Positions 3,873-63,168 of a stretch of DNA of 64,000 nt are shown here, piece by piece. Location: NCBI GenBank assembly GCA_016223085.1, contig JACRPS010000015.1, positions 1-64,000 of the forward strand, in the 5' to 3' direction. Positions within the stretch are counted from its first letter, which is position 1, and each line of letters begins with the position of its first letter. The notes beneath the pieces are model-generated. The model did not search any database. It saw nothing but the letters and a program-made list of their open reading frames with translations, and was not told the origin of the DNA. Source of the stretch: Chloroflexota bacterium (GTDB lineage Bacteria > Chloroflexota > Anaerolineae > Aggregatilineales > Phototrophicaceae). The translations under genes were made by a program, and so were the position numbers.

Positions 3873-3902
3873 TGTAGGGACACGATGTATCGTGTCCCTA
3901 CA
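3873..3902. repeat. GTAGGG-family palindrome, copy 1
   Basis: A 30-base palindrome with 14-base arms (TGTAGGGACACGAT and its complement) around a central GT. It fills the gap between the two CvpA-like genes and ends just before the ribosome binding site of the second. It belongs to the dispersed family described in the findings. Confidence 0.9.
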
Positions 3903-7084: not shown

Positions 7085-7112
7085 GTAGGGACACGGCATG
7101 CCGTGTCCCTAC
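7085..7112. repeat. GTAGGG-family palindrome, perfect 28-mer
   Basis: A perfect 28-base palindrome with arm GTAGGGACACGGCA, located 18 bp after the murB stop. It can form a 12-bp hairpin but lacks a T-run, so it is a repeat rather than an intrinsic terminator. Confidence 0.9.
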
Positions 7113-31610: not shown

Positions 31611-32000
31611 ATGCACATTGAACACGTCGCCATCTGGACACACGATCTGGAACGGCTGAAGGATTTTTACGCGCGCTACTTCAACGCCGTGCCGAGCGCC
31701 AAATACACCAATTCGTTCACGCAGTTTGAGTCGTACTTCCTGACGTTCGAGACGGGCGCGCGGCTGGAACTGATGCAGATGCCGGGGATTGCGGCGGGAC
31801 CGAACGGAGGTGAGCAGCAGTTCACCGGGTATAACCACCTGGCGTTTTCGGTCGGCAGCCAGGAAGCGGTTGATGCGCTGACCGAACAGCTTCGCCGCGA
31901 CGGCTACCCGGTGATCGGCGAGCCGCGCCGGACCGGGGATGGCTATTACGAAAGCGTGATTTTGGATCCAGACGGCAACCGCGTCGAAATCACGATCTAG
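31611..32000 (+). CDS. Glyoxalase/VOC-family protein
   Basis: This 129-residue protein consists of one vicinal-oxygen-chelate unit pair. MHIEHVAIWTHDLERLKDFY gives the first metal-ligand His5, ARLELMQMPG an acidic ligand, NHLAFSVGSQEAVDALTEQL the third and DPDGNRVEI the last Glu. It is probably a metal-dependent lyase or dioxygenase subunit with an unknown substrate. The ATG at 31611 has AGAGGA upstream and matches the family's start; the frame stays open further upstream without a better start. Its end overlaps the convergent FemAB gene by 11 bp. Confidence 0.85.
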   Translation: MHIEHVAIWTHDLERLKDFYARYFNAVPSAKYTNSFTQFESYFLTFETGARLELMQMPGIAAGPNGGEQQFTGYNHLAFSVGSQEAVDALTEQLRRDGYPVIGEPRRTGDGYYESVILDPDGNRVEITI

Positions 32001-33063
32001 CCCGCCGCATCCACTTCAGCAGGCGCGGCAGGATTTGCGTGTAGCCCCAGTACAGCGGCGGGTACGGGGCATAATCCCACGCGCCGATGTAGCGCGTCAC
32101 CGTGCCGCGAAAACCGCGCTTGAATTCGTACACGCCCCACATCGAGTCTGACTCGTCGAACATGTCCGGCGCGCCCCACAGGTCGTAGGTGGTGTAACCC
32201 TGCGCTTTCGCCCAGCGCATCGCCTCCCATTGCAGCAGGTAGTTCGGCATCCGTTCGCGCTCCTCGTTGGCGGACGCGCCGTAGAAATACCAGCATTTGC
32301 GCCCGAAGTGGAACAGGATGACATGGGCAATCGGCTTGCCTTCGTACTCGGCGATCAGCGCGTGGGCTAACCCGGCTTCCATTAAAAAGCGCCATTCGCG
32401 CTGGTAATATTCCGCCGGACGAATCAGGAAGTTATCGCGCGCGCCGGTCACACGGTACAGATCATACAGAACCGGTAAATCGGCTACCGTCGCGGGGCGG
32501 ACTGTCACCCCTTTTTTCTCGGCAGTACGCACCTTGCGGCGCGTGTTCTGGCTCATCTGCGCCAGCAGCGTATCTTCACCAGGGGTGAGGTCAACGGTGA
32601 TCGTGTTGCGGAACTGCACCTGATCGGGGGAAAAGCGCCAGCCGCGTTCGCGCAGCAGCTTCATGAAGGTCTGACCGGTCGCGTTCGGTGTGTCGCTGTC
32701 CTCGCCTGGTACGCCAGTGGCAGCGATCACGTCCGGGTCGAGCTTCAGCCACACGGCGGCCTGCCGCCTCGCCAGTGTTTGCAAGTGGTCAAGCACCGAG
32801 GCGGCGAGGGCGGTATCGGCATAATCGAGCGCCGGGCCTTTGGGGATGTACATCACCTTCAGCGGGCCAACACTGCGAACGCCGACCGATGCCATCGCTG
32901 CCACATCCGCCCCGCGTTTGAAGGCCAGGCGCAGCGGCTGCCAGCCGGTCGTTTCGCGCTTAAATTCGCCCCATTCCCAGGTTTGCAGGACGTGGGCATA
33001 GGGCAGGGTGCGAAGTGCGGCGTTCCAGTCTTTGGGGGAGGTGATGACAATAGGAATGAGCAA
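31990..33063 (-). CDS. FemAB-family peptidoglycan aminoacyltransferase, copy 1
   Basis: This 357-residue protein of the FemX/FemAB family uses aminoacyl-tRNA to add bridge amino acids to lipid II stem peptides. Twin GNAT-like domains are indicated by AHVLQTWEWGEFKRETTGW (residues 24-42), VMYIPKGPALDY near 70, the basic NTRRKVRTAEKKGVTVR near 175, the YYQREWRFL region, and HVILFHFGRKCWYFYGASANE. The C-terminal motif YTTYDLWGAPDMFDESDSMWGVYEFKRGF is conserved in the family. The start is TTG. A second copy lies at 35100-36206. The amino acid added cannot be read from the sequence. Confidence 0.9.
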   Translation of the reverse strand: MLIPIVITSPKDWNAALRTLPYAHVLQTWEWGEFKRETTGWQPLRLAFKRGADVAAMASVGVRSVGPLKVMYIPKGPALDYADTALAASVLDHLQTLARRQAAVWLKLDPDVIAATGVPGEDSDTPNATGQTFMKLLRERGWRFSPDQVQFRNTITVDLTPGEDTLLAQMSQNTRRKVRTAEKKGVTVRPATVADLPVLYDLYRVTGARDNFLIRPAEYYQREWRFLMEAGLAHALIAEYEGKPIAHVILFHFGRKCWYFYGASANEERERMPNYLLQWEAMRWAKAQGYTTYDLWGAPDMFDESDSMWGVYEFKRGFRGTVTRYIGAWDYAPYPPLYWGYTQILPRLLKWMRRARS

Positions 33064-34422: not shown

Positions 34423-34860
34423 TTATGACTCAAAATCCCCCACCCACTTCACCCAATTCAATTGCTGGCGAACCGCATTAAATAGCTTTTCGTCCGCTGT
34501 CCAAAAGTCACAGTCCAAGCGTTCAGCAACGGCTAGATACTGCGAGTCATACGCCGTTGGACGGTTGAACTGGGTGGCAAGCTCGTAGGCACGTTTAAGG
34601 AGAGGCATATCCATCATGAGTTGGACAGGTACGGATAGAAGTTTATCACGGACAATAATCGCTTCTTCAGGAACAAGCGTTCCACGATAAACGTTCTTCC
34701 TAAGTGCAGCCACGATTTCATAGTGAAAGAGGGAAGGCGCAGTCAATTGTAAGTTCTGTTGTTCCCACAGTTGCACCAGCGCCCGCGCTTTGCTTGTGTT
34801 TGACTCGACCAGTGCCGTTGCTATCAGCAAACTGGAGTCACAAACTACCGAGGATGTCAT
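34423..34860 (-). CDS. PIN-domain ribonuclease (VapC-like), second module
   Basis: This 145-residue PIN protein has all four acidic positions: Asp8 (VVCDSSLLIA), Glu48 (LFHYEIVAAL), Asp105 (TAYDSQYLAVAERL) and Asp123 (FWTADEKLFNAV). The AYDxxYLAxA and TADxxL patterns are typical of VapC toxins. It overlaps the upstream antitoxin gene by 23 bp. Confidence 0.87.
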   Translation of the reverse strand: MTSSVVCDSSLLIATALVESNTSKARALVQLWEQQNLQLTAPSLFHYEIVAALRKNVYRGTLVPEEAIIVRDKLLSVPVQLMMDMPLLKRAYELATQFNRPTAYDSQYLAVAERLDCDFWTADEKLFNAVRQQLNWVKWVGDFES

Positions 34861-35086
34861 CCAGCCGTTCCTCTCTGACCTCGTTAATTAGATCGGCTGC
34901 ACTGGGGAAATGGTGAGCGCCATACTTAGCCTGAAGCGTCTGGCTCAATGTTTCAATGTCCTGAAGCCATTCACCTAAAGTTAACCGAGGCGCATCTATC
35001 TCTTGAATGTAGAGTAATACCTGTCGTTTGCGATCTTCATCCAGCTTGCGAATCCGGTCAATCAATTCCTGTTCCAGCGCCGACAT
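34838..35086 (-). CDS. Probable antitoxin of the second PIN module
   Basis: This 82-residue protein has an N-terminal helix pair (LEQELIDRIRKLDEDRKRQVLLYIQEID) and a longer C-terminal part with LTLGEWLQDIETLSQTLQAKYG, ending in LINEVREERLDDILGSL. The size and 23-bp overlap with the PIN gene identify it as the antitoxin by context. The ATG at 35086 has AGGAGTGG nine bases upstream; longer in-frame starts run into the end of the FemAB gene and were rejected. Confidence 0.72.
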   Translation of the reverse strand: MSALEQELIDRIRKLDEDRKRQVLLYIQEIDAPRLTLGEWLQDIETLSQTLQAKYGAHHFPSAADLINEVREERLDDILGSL

Positions 35087-35099
35087 GCTGTTCCACTCC

Positions 35100-36206
35100 T
35101 TACTCATCAGCCCCACCGCGCAGCCGCAAAGCGGCTCTATAGGCATTATACACCAGCGGGTTATACACCTTATCCCATGCGCCGAGCGAGCGCACGATCT
35201 GCCCGCCCCAGCCGCGCTTGAAGCCGTACACACCCCACAGGCCGTCGCTGCGCTGCTGGAACTGGGCTTCGAGGGTCACTTCATCTTCGTCGGGGATGCC
35301 CCACATGTCGTACATGGTGCAGCCGCGCGCCTTCGCCCATTGAATCGCGGCCCACTGCACGCCGTAGGCCGCCATCAGGTTACGCTTCACCTCGGACGAT
35401 GCGCCGTACAGATACCAGGCCGCCTTGCCGATGGCGAATACCATGATGCCTGCCAGCGCATCGCCATCATGTTCGGCCAGAATCAGCACGGCGTGTCCCT
35501 GCGGCACAAACAGCTCATAGGCCAGTTCGTAGTATTTCGGCGCATGGACACCAAATTCGTTGCGTGCGCCAGTGGTGTGCATCATGGCGTTAAAGACCGG
35601 GACTTCGGCGCGGCTGGCTTCCCAGTAACGGATGCCATTTTTCTGGCTCTGGCGGATTTTGCGGCGCGTGCCCTGGTTCATGCGGGCGAGAACGGTGTCA
35701 TCATCGCTGCTGATGTCAATCATAATCGTGCGTGGCGGCTGGATGGTCTGCGGGCTGGCGCGGAAGCCGAGTTCCGGCGGGGACACGGCGCGCCGTGTCC
35801 CTACGGGGTCTGCATCAACAATGCCCGGCTCCCACTTGAGGAAGGCGGCGCGGCGCTGCCGGGCACAGGCATCTATTGCCTGCCACAACGGGCGCCTGAT
35901 TTCCACGCTGGCGCTGCTGTTTTGTCCCCCCCTCTCTGAATTCGGGGAGGGGGCAGGGGGGAGGGGTTGGATATACGGCCCCATCGCCAGATACGCCATC
36001 GTGCCCAGACGGAAGGGCAGCCGCCGGAACAAAAGCTGCGCGCCGGCGACGATCTGCCCATCCTCGACCAGCGCCACGCGGTCGGCGTCCCAGCCAAAGG
36101 CGCGTTTGAGTTCACCCCAGGCCGAGAGTTGCAGCACATGGGCGCGCGGCTGGGCAGCTACGAAAGCATCCCATTGATCTGGTGTGGGCGAAATGGTTTG
36201 TAACAT
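35100..36206 (-). CDS. FemAB-family aminoacyltransferase, copy 2, with repeat-derived insertions
   Basis: This 368-residue paralogue of the 31990-33063 protein shares AHVLQLSAWGELKRAFGW, LGTMAYLAMGPYI, QGTRRKIRQSQKNGIRYW, KAAWYLYGASSE, YDMWGIPDEDE and WGVYGFKRGWGG. Two segments have no counterpart in copy 1: residues about 81-95 (PLPPAPSPNSERGGQ) and about 133-143 (DPVGTRRAVSP). Both are encoded by palindromic intergenic-type repeats that keep the frame. They lie in loops of the first domain, so the enzyme may still work. Its substrate is presumably the lipid II stem peptide, and it ends 14 bases before the antitoxin start. Confidence 0.88.
   Translation of the reverse strand: MLQTISPTPDQWDAFVAAQPRAHVLQLSAWGELKRAFGWDADRVALVEDGQIVAGAQLLFRRLPFRLGTMAYLAMGPYIQPLPPAPSPNSERGGQNSSASVEIRRPLWQAIDACARQRRAAFLKWEPGIVDADPVGTRRAVSPPELGFRASPQTIQPPRTIMIDISSDDDTVLARMNQGTRRKIRQSQKNGIRYWEASRAEVPVFNAMMHTTGARNEFGVHAPKYYELAYELFVPQGHAVLILAEHDGDALAGIMVFAIGKAAWYLYGASSEVKRNLMAAYGVQWAAIQWAKARGCTMYDMWGIPDEDEVTLEAQFQQRSDGLWGVYGFKRGWGGQIVRSLGAWDKVYNPLVYNAYRAALRLRGGADE
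35780..35804. repeat. GTAGGG-family palindrome inside the FemAB frame
   Basis: GGGACACGGCG and CGCCGTGTCCC form a perfect 22-base palindrome followed by TAC, the same core as the intergenic copies at 7085-7112 and 58524-58545. It is read on the minus strand as PVGTRRAVS within FemAB copy 2. Confidence 0.88.
35926..35970. repeat. CCCCTCTCTGAATTCGGGGAGG repeat inside the FemAB frame
   Basis: A C-rich arm, GAATTC centre and G-rich arm (GGGGAGGGGG) followed by CAGGGGGGAGGGG form an imperfect inverted repeat of intergenic type, translated as a Pro/Ser-rich loop. No second copy is in this window, so its repeat nature rests on composition and symmetry. Confidence 0.6.
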
Positions 36207-36618: not shown

Positions 36619-36981
36619 ATGGCTGTCTTAAACGAATGGGCATTCGTCGGCGTCTTTTTCGCCATCGCCTGGGTGTTCCCGGTGCTGCCGATTGTGGGCG
36701 CACGAATCTTTGCCCCGCACAAGCCGAATCCACTCAAGCAGTCTACCTATGAATGCGGTGTGGAAACGGTTGGCGATACCTGGGTTCAGTTCAAGGTTCA
36801 GTATTACATCTACGGTCTGGTGTTCCTTGTATTTGACGTGGAAGTGGTGCTGCTGTTCCCCTGGGCACTGGCGTACAACCAGCTTGATTTCTTCGCGTTT
36901 GCGGCAGGGCTGCTGTTTATCTTCCTGCTGGCCGATGCGTTGATTTACGCCTGGCGCAAGGGCGCGCTGGAGTGGGTCTAA
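36619..36981 (+). CDS. nuoA: NADH-quinone oxidoreductase subunit A (NuoA)
   Basis: This 120-residue membrane subunit has three helices. The family signature NPLKQSTYECGVETVGDTWVQ (read as YECGVE) sits in the first loop, followed by QYYIYGLVFLVFDVEVVLLFPWA, both hallmarks of NuoA/ND3. The frame is open about 130 bp further upstream, but the ATG at 36619 with GGGAG upstream gives the normal length. It is followed directly by nuoH, so nuoBCD are not in their usual place. Confidence 0.94.
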   Translation: MAVLNEWAFVGVFFAIAWVFPVLPIVGARIFAPHKPNPLKQSTYECGVETVGDTWVQFKVQYYIYGLVFLVFDVEVVLLFPWALAYNQLDFFAFAAGLLFIFLLADALIYAWRKGALEWV

Positions 36982-36986
36982 TACAG

Positions 36987-37021
36987 TACTGAGTACTGAG
37001 TACTGAGTGCTGAGTGCTGAG
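36987..37021. repeat. Heptamer tandem repeat (TACTGAG/TGCTGAG)
   Basis: Five 7-base units, three TACTGAG then two TGCTGAG, occupy the nuoA-nuoH gap. They resemble the short tandemly repeated heptamers (STRR) of cyanobacteria. A second tract of the same unit lies at 43364-43391. Confidence 0.9.
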
Positions 37022-37037
37022 TGAGGATACAAGACTG

Positions 37038-38309: not shown

Positions 38310-38338
38310 GTAGGGGAGGGTCTAAGACCCTCCCCTAC
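38310..38338. repeat. GTAGGGGAGGGTC palindrome
   Basis: Two perfect 13-base arms (GTAGGGGAGGGTC and complement) flank TAA in the nuoH-nuoJ gap. The outer GTAGGGG/CCCCTAC matches the copies at 38899 and 41728. Confidence 0.9.
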
Positions 38339-38898: not shown

Positions 38899-38928
38899 GT
38901 AGGGGCGGGTTTTGAAACCCGCCCCTAC
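38899..38928. repeat. GTAGGGGCGGGTTT palindrome, perfect
   Basis: Two perfect 14-base arms flank TG in the nuoJ-nuoK gap. The GCAGGAG that follows serves as the nuoK ribosome binding site. Confidence 0.92.
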
Positions 38929-41727: not shown

Positions 41728-41757
41728 GTAGGGGCGGGTTTCTAAACTCGCCCCTAC
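41728..41757. repeat. GTAGGGGCGGGTTT palindrome, one mismatch
   Basis: GTAGGGGCGGGTTT and AAACTCGCCCCTAC flank CT in the nuoL-nuoM gap. It differs from the 38899 copy by one arm base and the loop. Confidence 0.9.
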
Positions 41758-43356: not shown

Positions 43357-43363
43357 CAAAAAA

Positions 43364-43391
43364 GTGCTGAGTGCTGAGTGCTGAGTGCTGA
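43364..43391. repeat. Heptamer tandem repeat (GTGCTGA), four units
   Basis: Four identical GTGCTGA units lie in the gap between the two nuoM genes. A degenerate GTAGGG-type element (GTAGGCAAGGCC with CGCCCCTAC, 43408-43431) follows. The unit is the same as the last units of the 36987-37021 tract. Confidence 0.9.
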
Positions 43392-43480
43392 GTAGACGGA
43401 TGTTATCGTAGGCAAGGCCTTGCGCCCCTACAAAATCGTCAAAAGGCAGGCAGCGGAGGCGCTCCGCCAAAGGGATAGTT

Positions 43481-56568: not shown

Positions 56569-56596
56569 GTAGGGACGAGATATATCTCGTCCCTAC
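56569..56596. repeat. GTAGGG-family palindrome, perfect 28-mer
   Basis: Arm GTAGGGACGAGATA and its exact complement, between xisI and proS. The inner arm differs from the GACACGG type, yet pairing is perfect. A CGCACTTGGCGTCCTGGCGG segment (CGCCAAG type) follows at 56624-56645. Confidence 0.92.
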
Positions 56597-63140: not shown

Positions 63141-63168
63141 GTAGGGACATGGCCCGCCATGTCCCTAC
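63141..63168. repeat. GTAGGG-family palindrome
   Basis: Arms GTAGGGACATGG and exact complement flank CCCG, 12 bases after the NYN gene stop. Confidence 0.92.

Follow-up and report, generated by a model that had tools for sequence, protein, structure and literature searches.

A short palindrome, element A, is most probably a REP-like repeat that has multiplied in the genome analysed here and whose copies within genes are tolerated in protein loops, two such loops of one FemAB protein (FemAB2), an enzyme of cell-wall type, having been colonised by repeats. The course that we propose would start from a symmetric, GTAG-tagged palindrome multiplied to more than 700 copies, mostly just behind genes; a copy inside a gene would survive if the frame is kept, the TAG phase is avoided and the site tolerates about 10 extra or replaced residues. 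FemAB2 would offer two tolerant loops, colonised by element A, by a second repeat (element B) or by other repeats, here and in related species, the order of events probably being colonisation, trimming and renewed colonisation. Dispersed in-frame repeats show how new protein segments can originate from repeat DNA.

Two repeats in frame within a FemAB gene

The window, that is the whole 64,000-nt stretch analysed, comprises positions 1-64000 of contig C4; the genome (G000 in the comparisons below) measures 6.03 Mb and is assembled in 37 contigs. It holds two FemAB genes near each other on the minus strand, copy 1 (31990-33063, 357 aa) and copy 2, FemAB2 (35100-36206, 368 aa, PF02388), and at least two FemAB matches are present in most of the 98 genomes of the family. 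Between the two genes, a PIN-domain gene (PF01850, 34423-34860) overlaps a small upstream frame (34838-35116) in a VapBC-like layout.

The preliminary description had placed two palindromic repeats in frame within FemAB2, and both are indeed translated there. Element A, a 28-nt GTAGGG...CCCTAC palindrome, lies at 35777-35804 and encodes residues 135-144, VGTRRAVSPP; it is self-complementary at 24 of 28 positions, more than any other 28-mer of the gene, with slight decay at the end lying 3' in the coding direction. Element B, a C/G-rich inverted repeat centred on GAATTC, lies at about 35920-35975 (core 35927-35952) and covers approximately residues 79-97, including PLPPAPSPNSERGG; both residue spans are arithmetic from the coordinates. 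Copy 1 had been described as aligning on either side of the two segments while lacking both. It does lack them, but there is no clean gap, its loop 2 being longer rather than shorter.

The structural model of FemAB2 has a FemX-like fold (best PDB match 6snr, TM-score 0.80 by query and 0.74 by target) and places both repeats in loops, at residues 75-97, between the end of a strand at 74 and the start of a helix at 98, and at 127-142, between a strand ending at 126 and a helix starting at 143. Mean pLDDT is 87.4, with values below 50 only at 85-96, at 132-139 and at the C-terminal residues 366-368; since thin alignment at the loops alone lowers pLDDT, these values set the loops outside the conserved fold and do not prove disorder. 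Outside the loops, dN between G000 and the related genome G015 is 0.116 and dS is 0.892, so that the rest of the gene is, on these rates, under purifying selection. A and B lie in frame in a gene predicted to be functional from its open frame, confident model and dN well below dS. The assembly is fragmentary, in its 37 contigs, and FemAB2 might on that account be an assembly error, or else a decaying pseudogene; given the open frame, the predicted fold, the low dN and the variation of the same loops in separately assembled genomes, we give this reading next to no credence.

Element B belongs to a real but small family, with 11 places at E <= 0.03 in a 2.84-Mb sample of the genome, that in FemAB2 included, and the second C/G-rich inverted repeat previously reported at 35926-35970 is thereby upheld. 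Five of the 11 places are inside called genes; within the window, no second copy of the B core was found at up to three mismatches. As a strong RNA hairpin B is rejected, since dinucleotide shuffles fold as well as it does (z +0.89). Of its four other in-gene places, three are in A-bearing genes, which make up 2.7% of coding bases, all three being weak matches (E 0.006-0.025), and some genes seem permissive to repeats. A repeat of ACTGAGT/GCTGAGT type occurs at 36980-37029 and 43358-43393 of the window, and the same kind is present in FemAB2 loop 2 of G011 and G014 (L019, L020).

Copy number and symmetry of element A

The segment 35780-35804 had been taken for the core of a dispersed GTAGGG palindrome, and the genome agrees: GTAGGGN15-18CCCTAC matches 731 times in 6.03 Mb and once in the reversed control. 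The seed GTAGGGACACGGC has 16 matches with up to two mismatches in the window (mean of 100 shuffles, 1.97), and 146 exact matches in the whole genome, where the reversed pattern has 0. The palindrome count of 731 is the highest among the 98 family genomes, followed by 279, 172, 145, 117 and 88, and 15 of the 98 have none; a sample of 400 genomes of the phylum includes 210 with a match, many of them near the control level, the counts being 165 and 169 in two genomes of another family (f25). This distribution suggests that the repeats are mobile.

A census over 2.84 of the 6.03 Mb, with genes called by a home-made caller that places the FemAB2 start later, at 36137, returned 552 copies of A and 3 in the reversed sequence. 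The FemAB2 copy, in which two bases of one terminus are changed, enters at a wider tolerance of two terminal plus two arm mismatches, at which 630 copies were found in the same sample against 9 in reverse. The commonest lengths are 28, 29 and 30 nt, and there are several core types. Pairing of GTAG with CTAC makes the element symmetric: the outermost four positions are complementary in 96, 87, 97 and 98% of 301 28-mers, a set selected for complementarity. When copies were picked on their termini alone and arms shuffled among copies, core complementarity exceeded that of the permuted arms in 234 28-mers (0.903 vs 0.643) and 127 29-mers (0.906 vs 0.557), with little excess in 30-mers (0.868 vs 0.809) and none in 27-mers (0.341 vs 0.396). 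The flanks of the palindrome are not conserved, apart from a scarcity of T beside CCCTAC; with this avoidance as the only signal, no conserved target motif was seen for A.

Within the window, further copies of A lie at 3874-3901, at 7085-7112, where the palindrome is perfect (RNA z -5.48), and at 63141-63168, where both arms differ in step from the 7085 copy (CATGGC/GCCATG; RNA z -6.42). Copies of the wider A superfamily are of the GTAGGGGAGGGTCT type at 38310-38338, the GTAGGGGCGGGTTT type at 38899-38928 and 41728-41757, and the GTAGGGACGAG type at 56569-56596.

Placement of element A relative to genes

The 552 census copies comprise 448 intergenic copies, 48 that overlap the 3' end of a gene, 6 that overlap a 5' end and 50 inside genes, so that the in-gene copies beyond FemAB2 for which the genome was searched do exist, yet are few in a sample that is 88% coding. 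A supplies the TAG stop in 45 of the 48 copies over 3' ends, and intergenic copies lie a median of 30 nt downstream of stop codons. When gaps of 60 nt or more are counted, 102 of 445 copies fall in convergent gaps, which are 221 of the 1,614 gaps, and 43 of 445 fall in divergent ones, which are 375 of the 1,614.

The intragenic copies are spread over 40 of 2,507 genes, six of which have at least two, and divide among the three phases as 37/11/2; 48 of the 50 thus fall in the two phases that avoid TAG, and the two in the TAG phase have no intact GTAG. The proposal that the palindrome is six-frame-tolerant fails here, as one phase holds TAG and none of the 552 copies is open in all six frames; copies are usually open in four (382 of 552). 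The peptide commonly encoded is VG(T/A)RxxV(S/P)LQ, and the host genes, assigned by domain or solved homologue, include metG, glyS, dnaG and hypF as well as genes for a fatty-acyl-AMP ligase, a biotin carboxylase and a kinase-TPR protein. Five in-frame copies of several core types occur in a gene for a YfhO-like membrane protein (L082, G000:C12:802496-805432). REP-like elements can be common within genes in this largely uncultured group.

Copies in genes might be kept for a function, as an mRNA hairpin or a useful protein loop, and a stable RNA hairpin is predicted for the FemAB2 copy of A (z -3.27 vs dinucleotide shuffles); the short distance of intergenic copies from the stops ahead of them and their share of convergent gaps would fit such a role. 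We nevertheless find it improbable, as in-gene copies are rare for so coding-dense a sample, their hosts are unrelated and the loop sequences differ between near species.

FemAB2 loops across related genomes

FemAB2 loops were read in 30 orthologues, the best 30 of 94 genomes with a match. A further FemAB locus set of 22 of 26 loci (L161, L162 and L167 being among those left out) overlaps widely with these 30, and alignment A1 has 24 rows, without L152, L160, L163 and L164. The genomes with a close FemAB2 are MAGs labelled Anaerolineae, Chloroflexi, Anaerolineaceae, Aggregatilineales and similar, and one is labelled Bacteroidetes. Most of the 30 orthologues have no repeat recognisable by eye in the loops; segment 1 is 31-36 residues long in 23 of 30 (counting G015, with repeat DNA) and segment 2 is 17-22 residues long in 25 of 30 (counting G004 and G013, with repeat DNA).

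Repeat-like DNA occurs at both loops in a four-species clade of G000, G015, G004 and G013 (98/94) in a tree built without the loop columns. The tree sets G015 nearer G004 and G013 (97/63); by MetG identity G015 is nearest G000 (92% vs 84%). In loop 1, G000 and G004 have element B with a common left junction and G013 an apparent remnant of B, both as judged by eye, and G015 has an A variant that is self-complementary at 22 of 28 positions. In loop 2, G000 has the A copy described above, G004 a perfect 18-nt palindrome, G013 a 28-mer with another core (22/28 self-complementary) and G015 a decayed GTAGGG sequence (14/29). In G013 and G015, as in G000, no 28-mer anywhere in the gene is more self-complementary than one of these loop sequences. 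Other repeats fill the same loops elsewhere: loop 1 of G003 has a GTAGGGGTTTGCC hairpin with 8-bp arms, out of register as a 27-mer (8/27), of a type that occurs elsewhere in the G003 genome too, and loop 2 of G011 and G014 has a CAGCACT-type repeat. In L152 (JAFLCG010000007.1), loop 1 is extended in frame by a long insert resembling several degenerate repeats. Scanning 55 FemAB loci of relatives at census thresholds gave no copy of A, so the loop repeats of these relatives have either decayed or belong to other types, and were assessed by eye.

The A and B segments of FemAB2 look acquired, not ancestral, because the loops of most orthologues are short and free of recognisable repeats, several genus members have different repeats in the same two loops, and the only internal pLDDT values below 50 fall there. 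That both peptides are old, the palindromes having arisen in place by chance or drift, would be favoured by the long loop 2 of the paralogue and by L025, in which both loops are long with no repeat recognisable by eye. We consider this account very improbable all the same, given the short loops in most orthologues read and the dispersal of the same type of DNA by the hundreds, against a near-empty reversed control. Read by eye, the 29 other orthologues include none with these peptides in the absence of repeat DNA, and the refuting observation named at the outset was not made; the similar loop-1 peptide of L010 comes with the same repeat DNA.

Insertion or replacement of loop sequence

Orthologues had been expected to differ by precise presence or absence of the two segments. 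Absence in most was confirmed, precise insertion was not. Loop 1 with B has 51 residues against 32 in a repeat-free relative (+19), and loop 2 of G000 has 24 against 20, so that a gain of merely about 4 residues, though the A copy spans about 10, gives no clean insertion. Among alignments of 17 element sites with own-genome paralogues, four read cleanly, the paralogue being 7-9 residues shorter, and the other 13 ranged from -36 to +14 and were not cleanly readable. Of 16 MetG proteins of the genus, four have the same length as that of G000, 10 are longer by 4 residues and two are shorter by 3; in G015, the 148 bases surrounding the MetG element are matched over their full length at 85% identity. 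At the HypF, biotin carboxylase and DnaG sites, net differences to genus relatives, worked out by hand from spans, are about -8 to +15, and the best alignments with solved homologues of MetG, HypF and the fatty-acyl-AMP ligase make G000 only a few residues longer at the element. The solved homologues, the net differences within the genus and the MetG lengths disagree with a clean insertion of 10 residues as a general rule, which we reject.

The palindrome could instead overwrite loop DNA with little or no change in length, by hairpin template switching or conversion, the same process keeping both arms matched as the core changes; such a process overlaps with our preferred explanation in that the loops are repeat-derived in both. 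It would account for the small gain at loop 2 of G000, for the net gain of 0 at loop 2 of G013 and for a MetG that is not longer than those of relatives. The loop-2 palindrome, moreover, reads CGAGTCATGACTCG in G004 and CGAGTTATAACTCG in G013, a paired change between genes 93.4% identical outside the loops; that the change keeps the palindrome matched is suggestive, as one case read from sequence. The excess complementarity of the cores over permuted arms in 28-mers and 29-mers points the same way, but subfamilies with different cores would also beat permuted arms, and the excess is small in 30-mers and missing in 27-mers. Overwriting is further opposed by the gains of 7-9 residues in the four readable paralogue pairs, by the 19 residues that loop 1 gained with B and by the G015 proteins, which are exactly 10 residues longer than those of G000 at the HypF and biotin carboxylase sites. 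On balance we hold it to be unlikely.

Between the near relatives L010 and L012, a pair of substitutions at mirrored sites of the FemAB2 loop-2 palindrome alters two amino acids at once. Palindromes might act as self-correcting loop editors, overwriting tolerant loops rather than lengthening them and shifting both arms together by hairpin-templated correction or conversion, an idea that we regard as decidedly doubtful; if it held, unrelated proteins would undergo concerted amino-acid change driven by one repeat family. Our best reading is that repeats were inserted into tolerant loops, were then trimmed and were followed by new colonisers.

Candidate transposases

In the course that we propose, an IS200-type Y1 transposase would move element A in the form of a single-stranded hairpin. 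Two short Y1 proteins of PF01797 type (C8:13469-13813 and C10:5821-6168) pass the NCBIfam IS200 cut-off of 55 bits, scoring 93.6 and 97.2. Around the two frames there are palindromes at distances of 25 nt to about 1.1 kb, a weak association in a genome where the palindrome is so common. A RAYT is doubtful as the mover, since the RAYT scores of the two proteins, 34.3 and 25.7 bits, fall short of the cut-off of 80 and co-occurrence does not match it either. The element-rich genomes G015 and G045 have just weak Y1 matches (38 and 45 bits) within long frames, and such matches recur across many family genomes. In G000, a Y1-transposase-like match lies in a 1,043-aa frame beside a DNA polymerase I-like frame (L041, G000:C8:171634-174966); it may be a domesticated, inactive domain, as the catalytic His and Tyr look lost by eye.

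Comparison with known repeat systems

Rickettsia palindromic elements (RPE) are palindromic repeats found in frame inside genes of unrelated function, and T. roseum is a member of the Chloroflexi. The likeness to the RPE mode drawn at the outset stands, as dispersed palindromes are in frame within FemAB2. Di Nocera et al. 2013 (PMC3733652) report CGTC as the tag of the R. conorii RPE and longer insertions for RPE-1, and the GTAG tag of A differs from the tag so described.

In the REP-RAYT system (Nunvar et al. 2010, PMC2817692), RAYT genes are described as always flanked by two inverted REPs. As there, GTAG-headed palindromes and PF01797 transposases occur here in one genome; unlike there, palindromes and transposase genes are only loosely associated in position, and the RAYT scores stay below cut-off. 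Enterobacterial repeat units within annotated genes (Delihas 2007, PMC2759123) resemble A in being small mobile repeats read as protein, but are described as MITE-like and 103-168 bp long, whereas A is a palindrome of about 28 nt. MITEs measure 70-300 bp with terminal inverted repeats, and A, at about 28-30 nt with no conserved flank, falls outside that class. The RepRanger survey (PMC12306157), compared here by description, reports REP-type sequences in Chloroflexota, and its table names Anaerolinea thermolimosa, so that REPs from this bacterial class are already in print; the word 'intragenic' is absent from its main text.

In-gene GTAG repeats in other bacteria are likewise already described (PMC3733652). 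What is apparently new is a family symmetric for GTAG/CTAC and the colonisation of the same two loops of one enzyme by unrelated repeat families; among the papers listed by searches of one open-access library, none was found to describe such a symmetric family placed in frame within Anaerolineae genes, or successive unrelated repeats in the same loops of one enzyme. Across related species, this one gene offers a natural series in which the same two loops are empty, hold one repeat, hold another or hold a decayed one, which opens to test the long-standing question of whether small repeats are a source of new protein sequence. Intragenic REP-like elements also matter for annotation.

The closest counterparts of A are the GTAG REPs, described as palindromes of 20-40 bp in high copy, mostly intergenic, that often give the flanking gene its TAG stop, some of them lying in repair and tRNA-synthetase genes, with loops offered as a reason for tolerance of in-gene copies and different REPs at about the same recB site in two Xanthomonas species (PMC3733652). 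With 27-30 nt and 731 exact copies, the A pattern lies within the size (20-40 nt) and number (>100) of GTAG REPs. The same account reports GTAG repeats in the phylum Chloroflexi, with the T. roseum GTAG-23 repeats clustered in blocks, whereas copies of A are dispersed. A and the GTAG REPs as described there have in common short length, high copy number, the GTAG tag, a mostly intergenic position near 3' ends and the supply of TAG stops; they differ in that GTAG is unpaired and at one end in the published repeats and paired with CTAC, in a symmetric element, in A.
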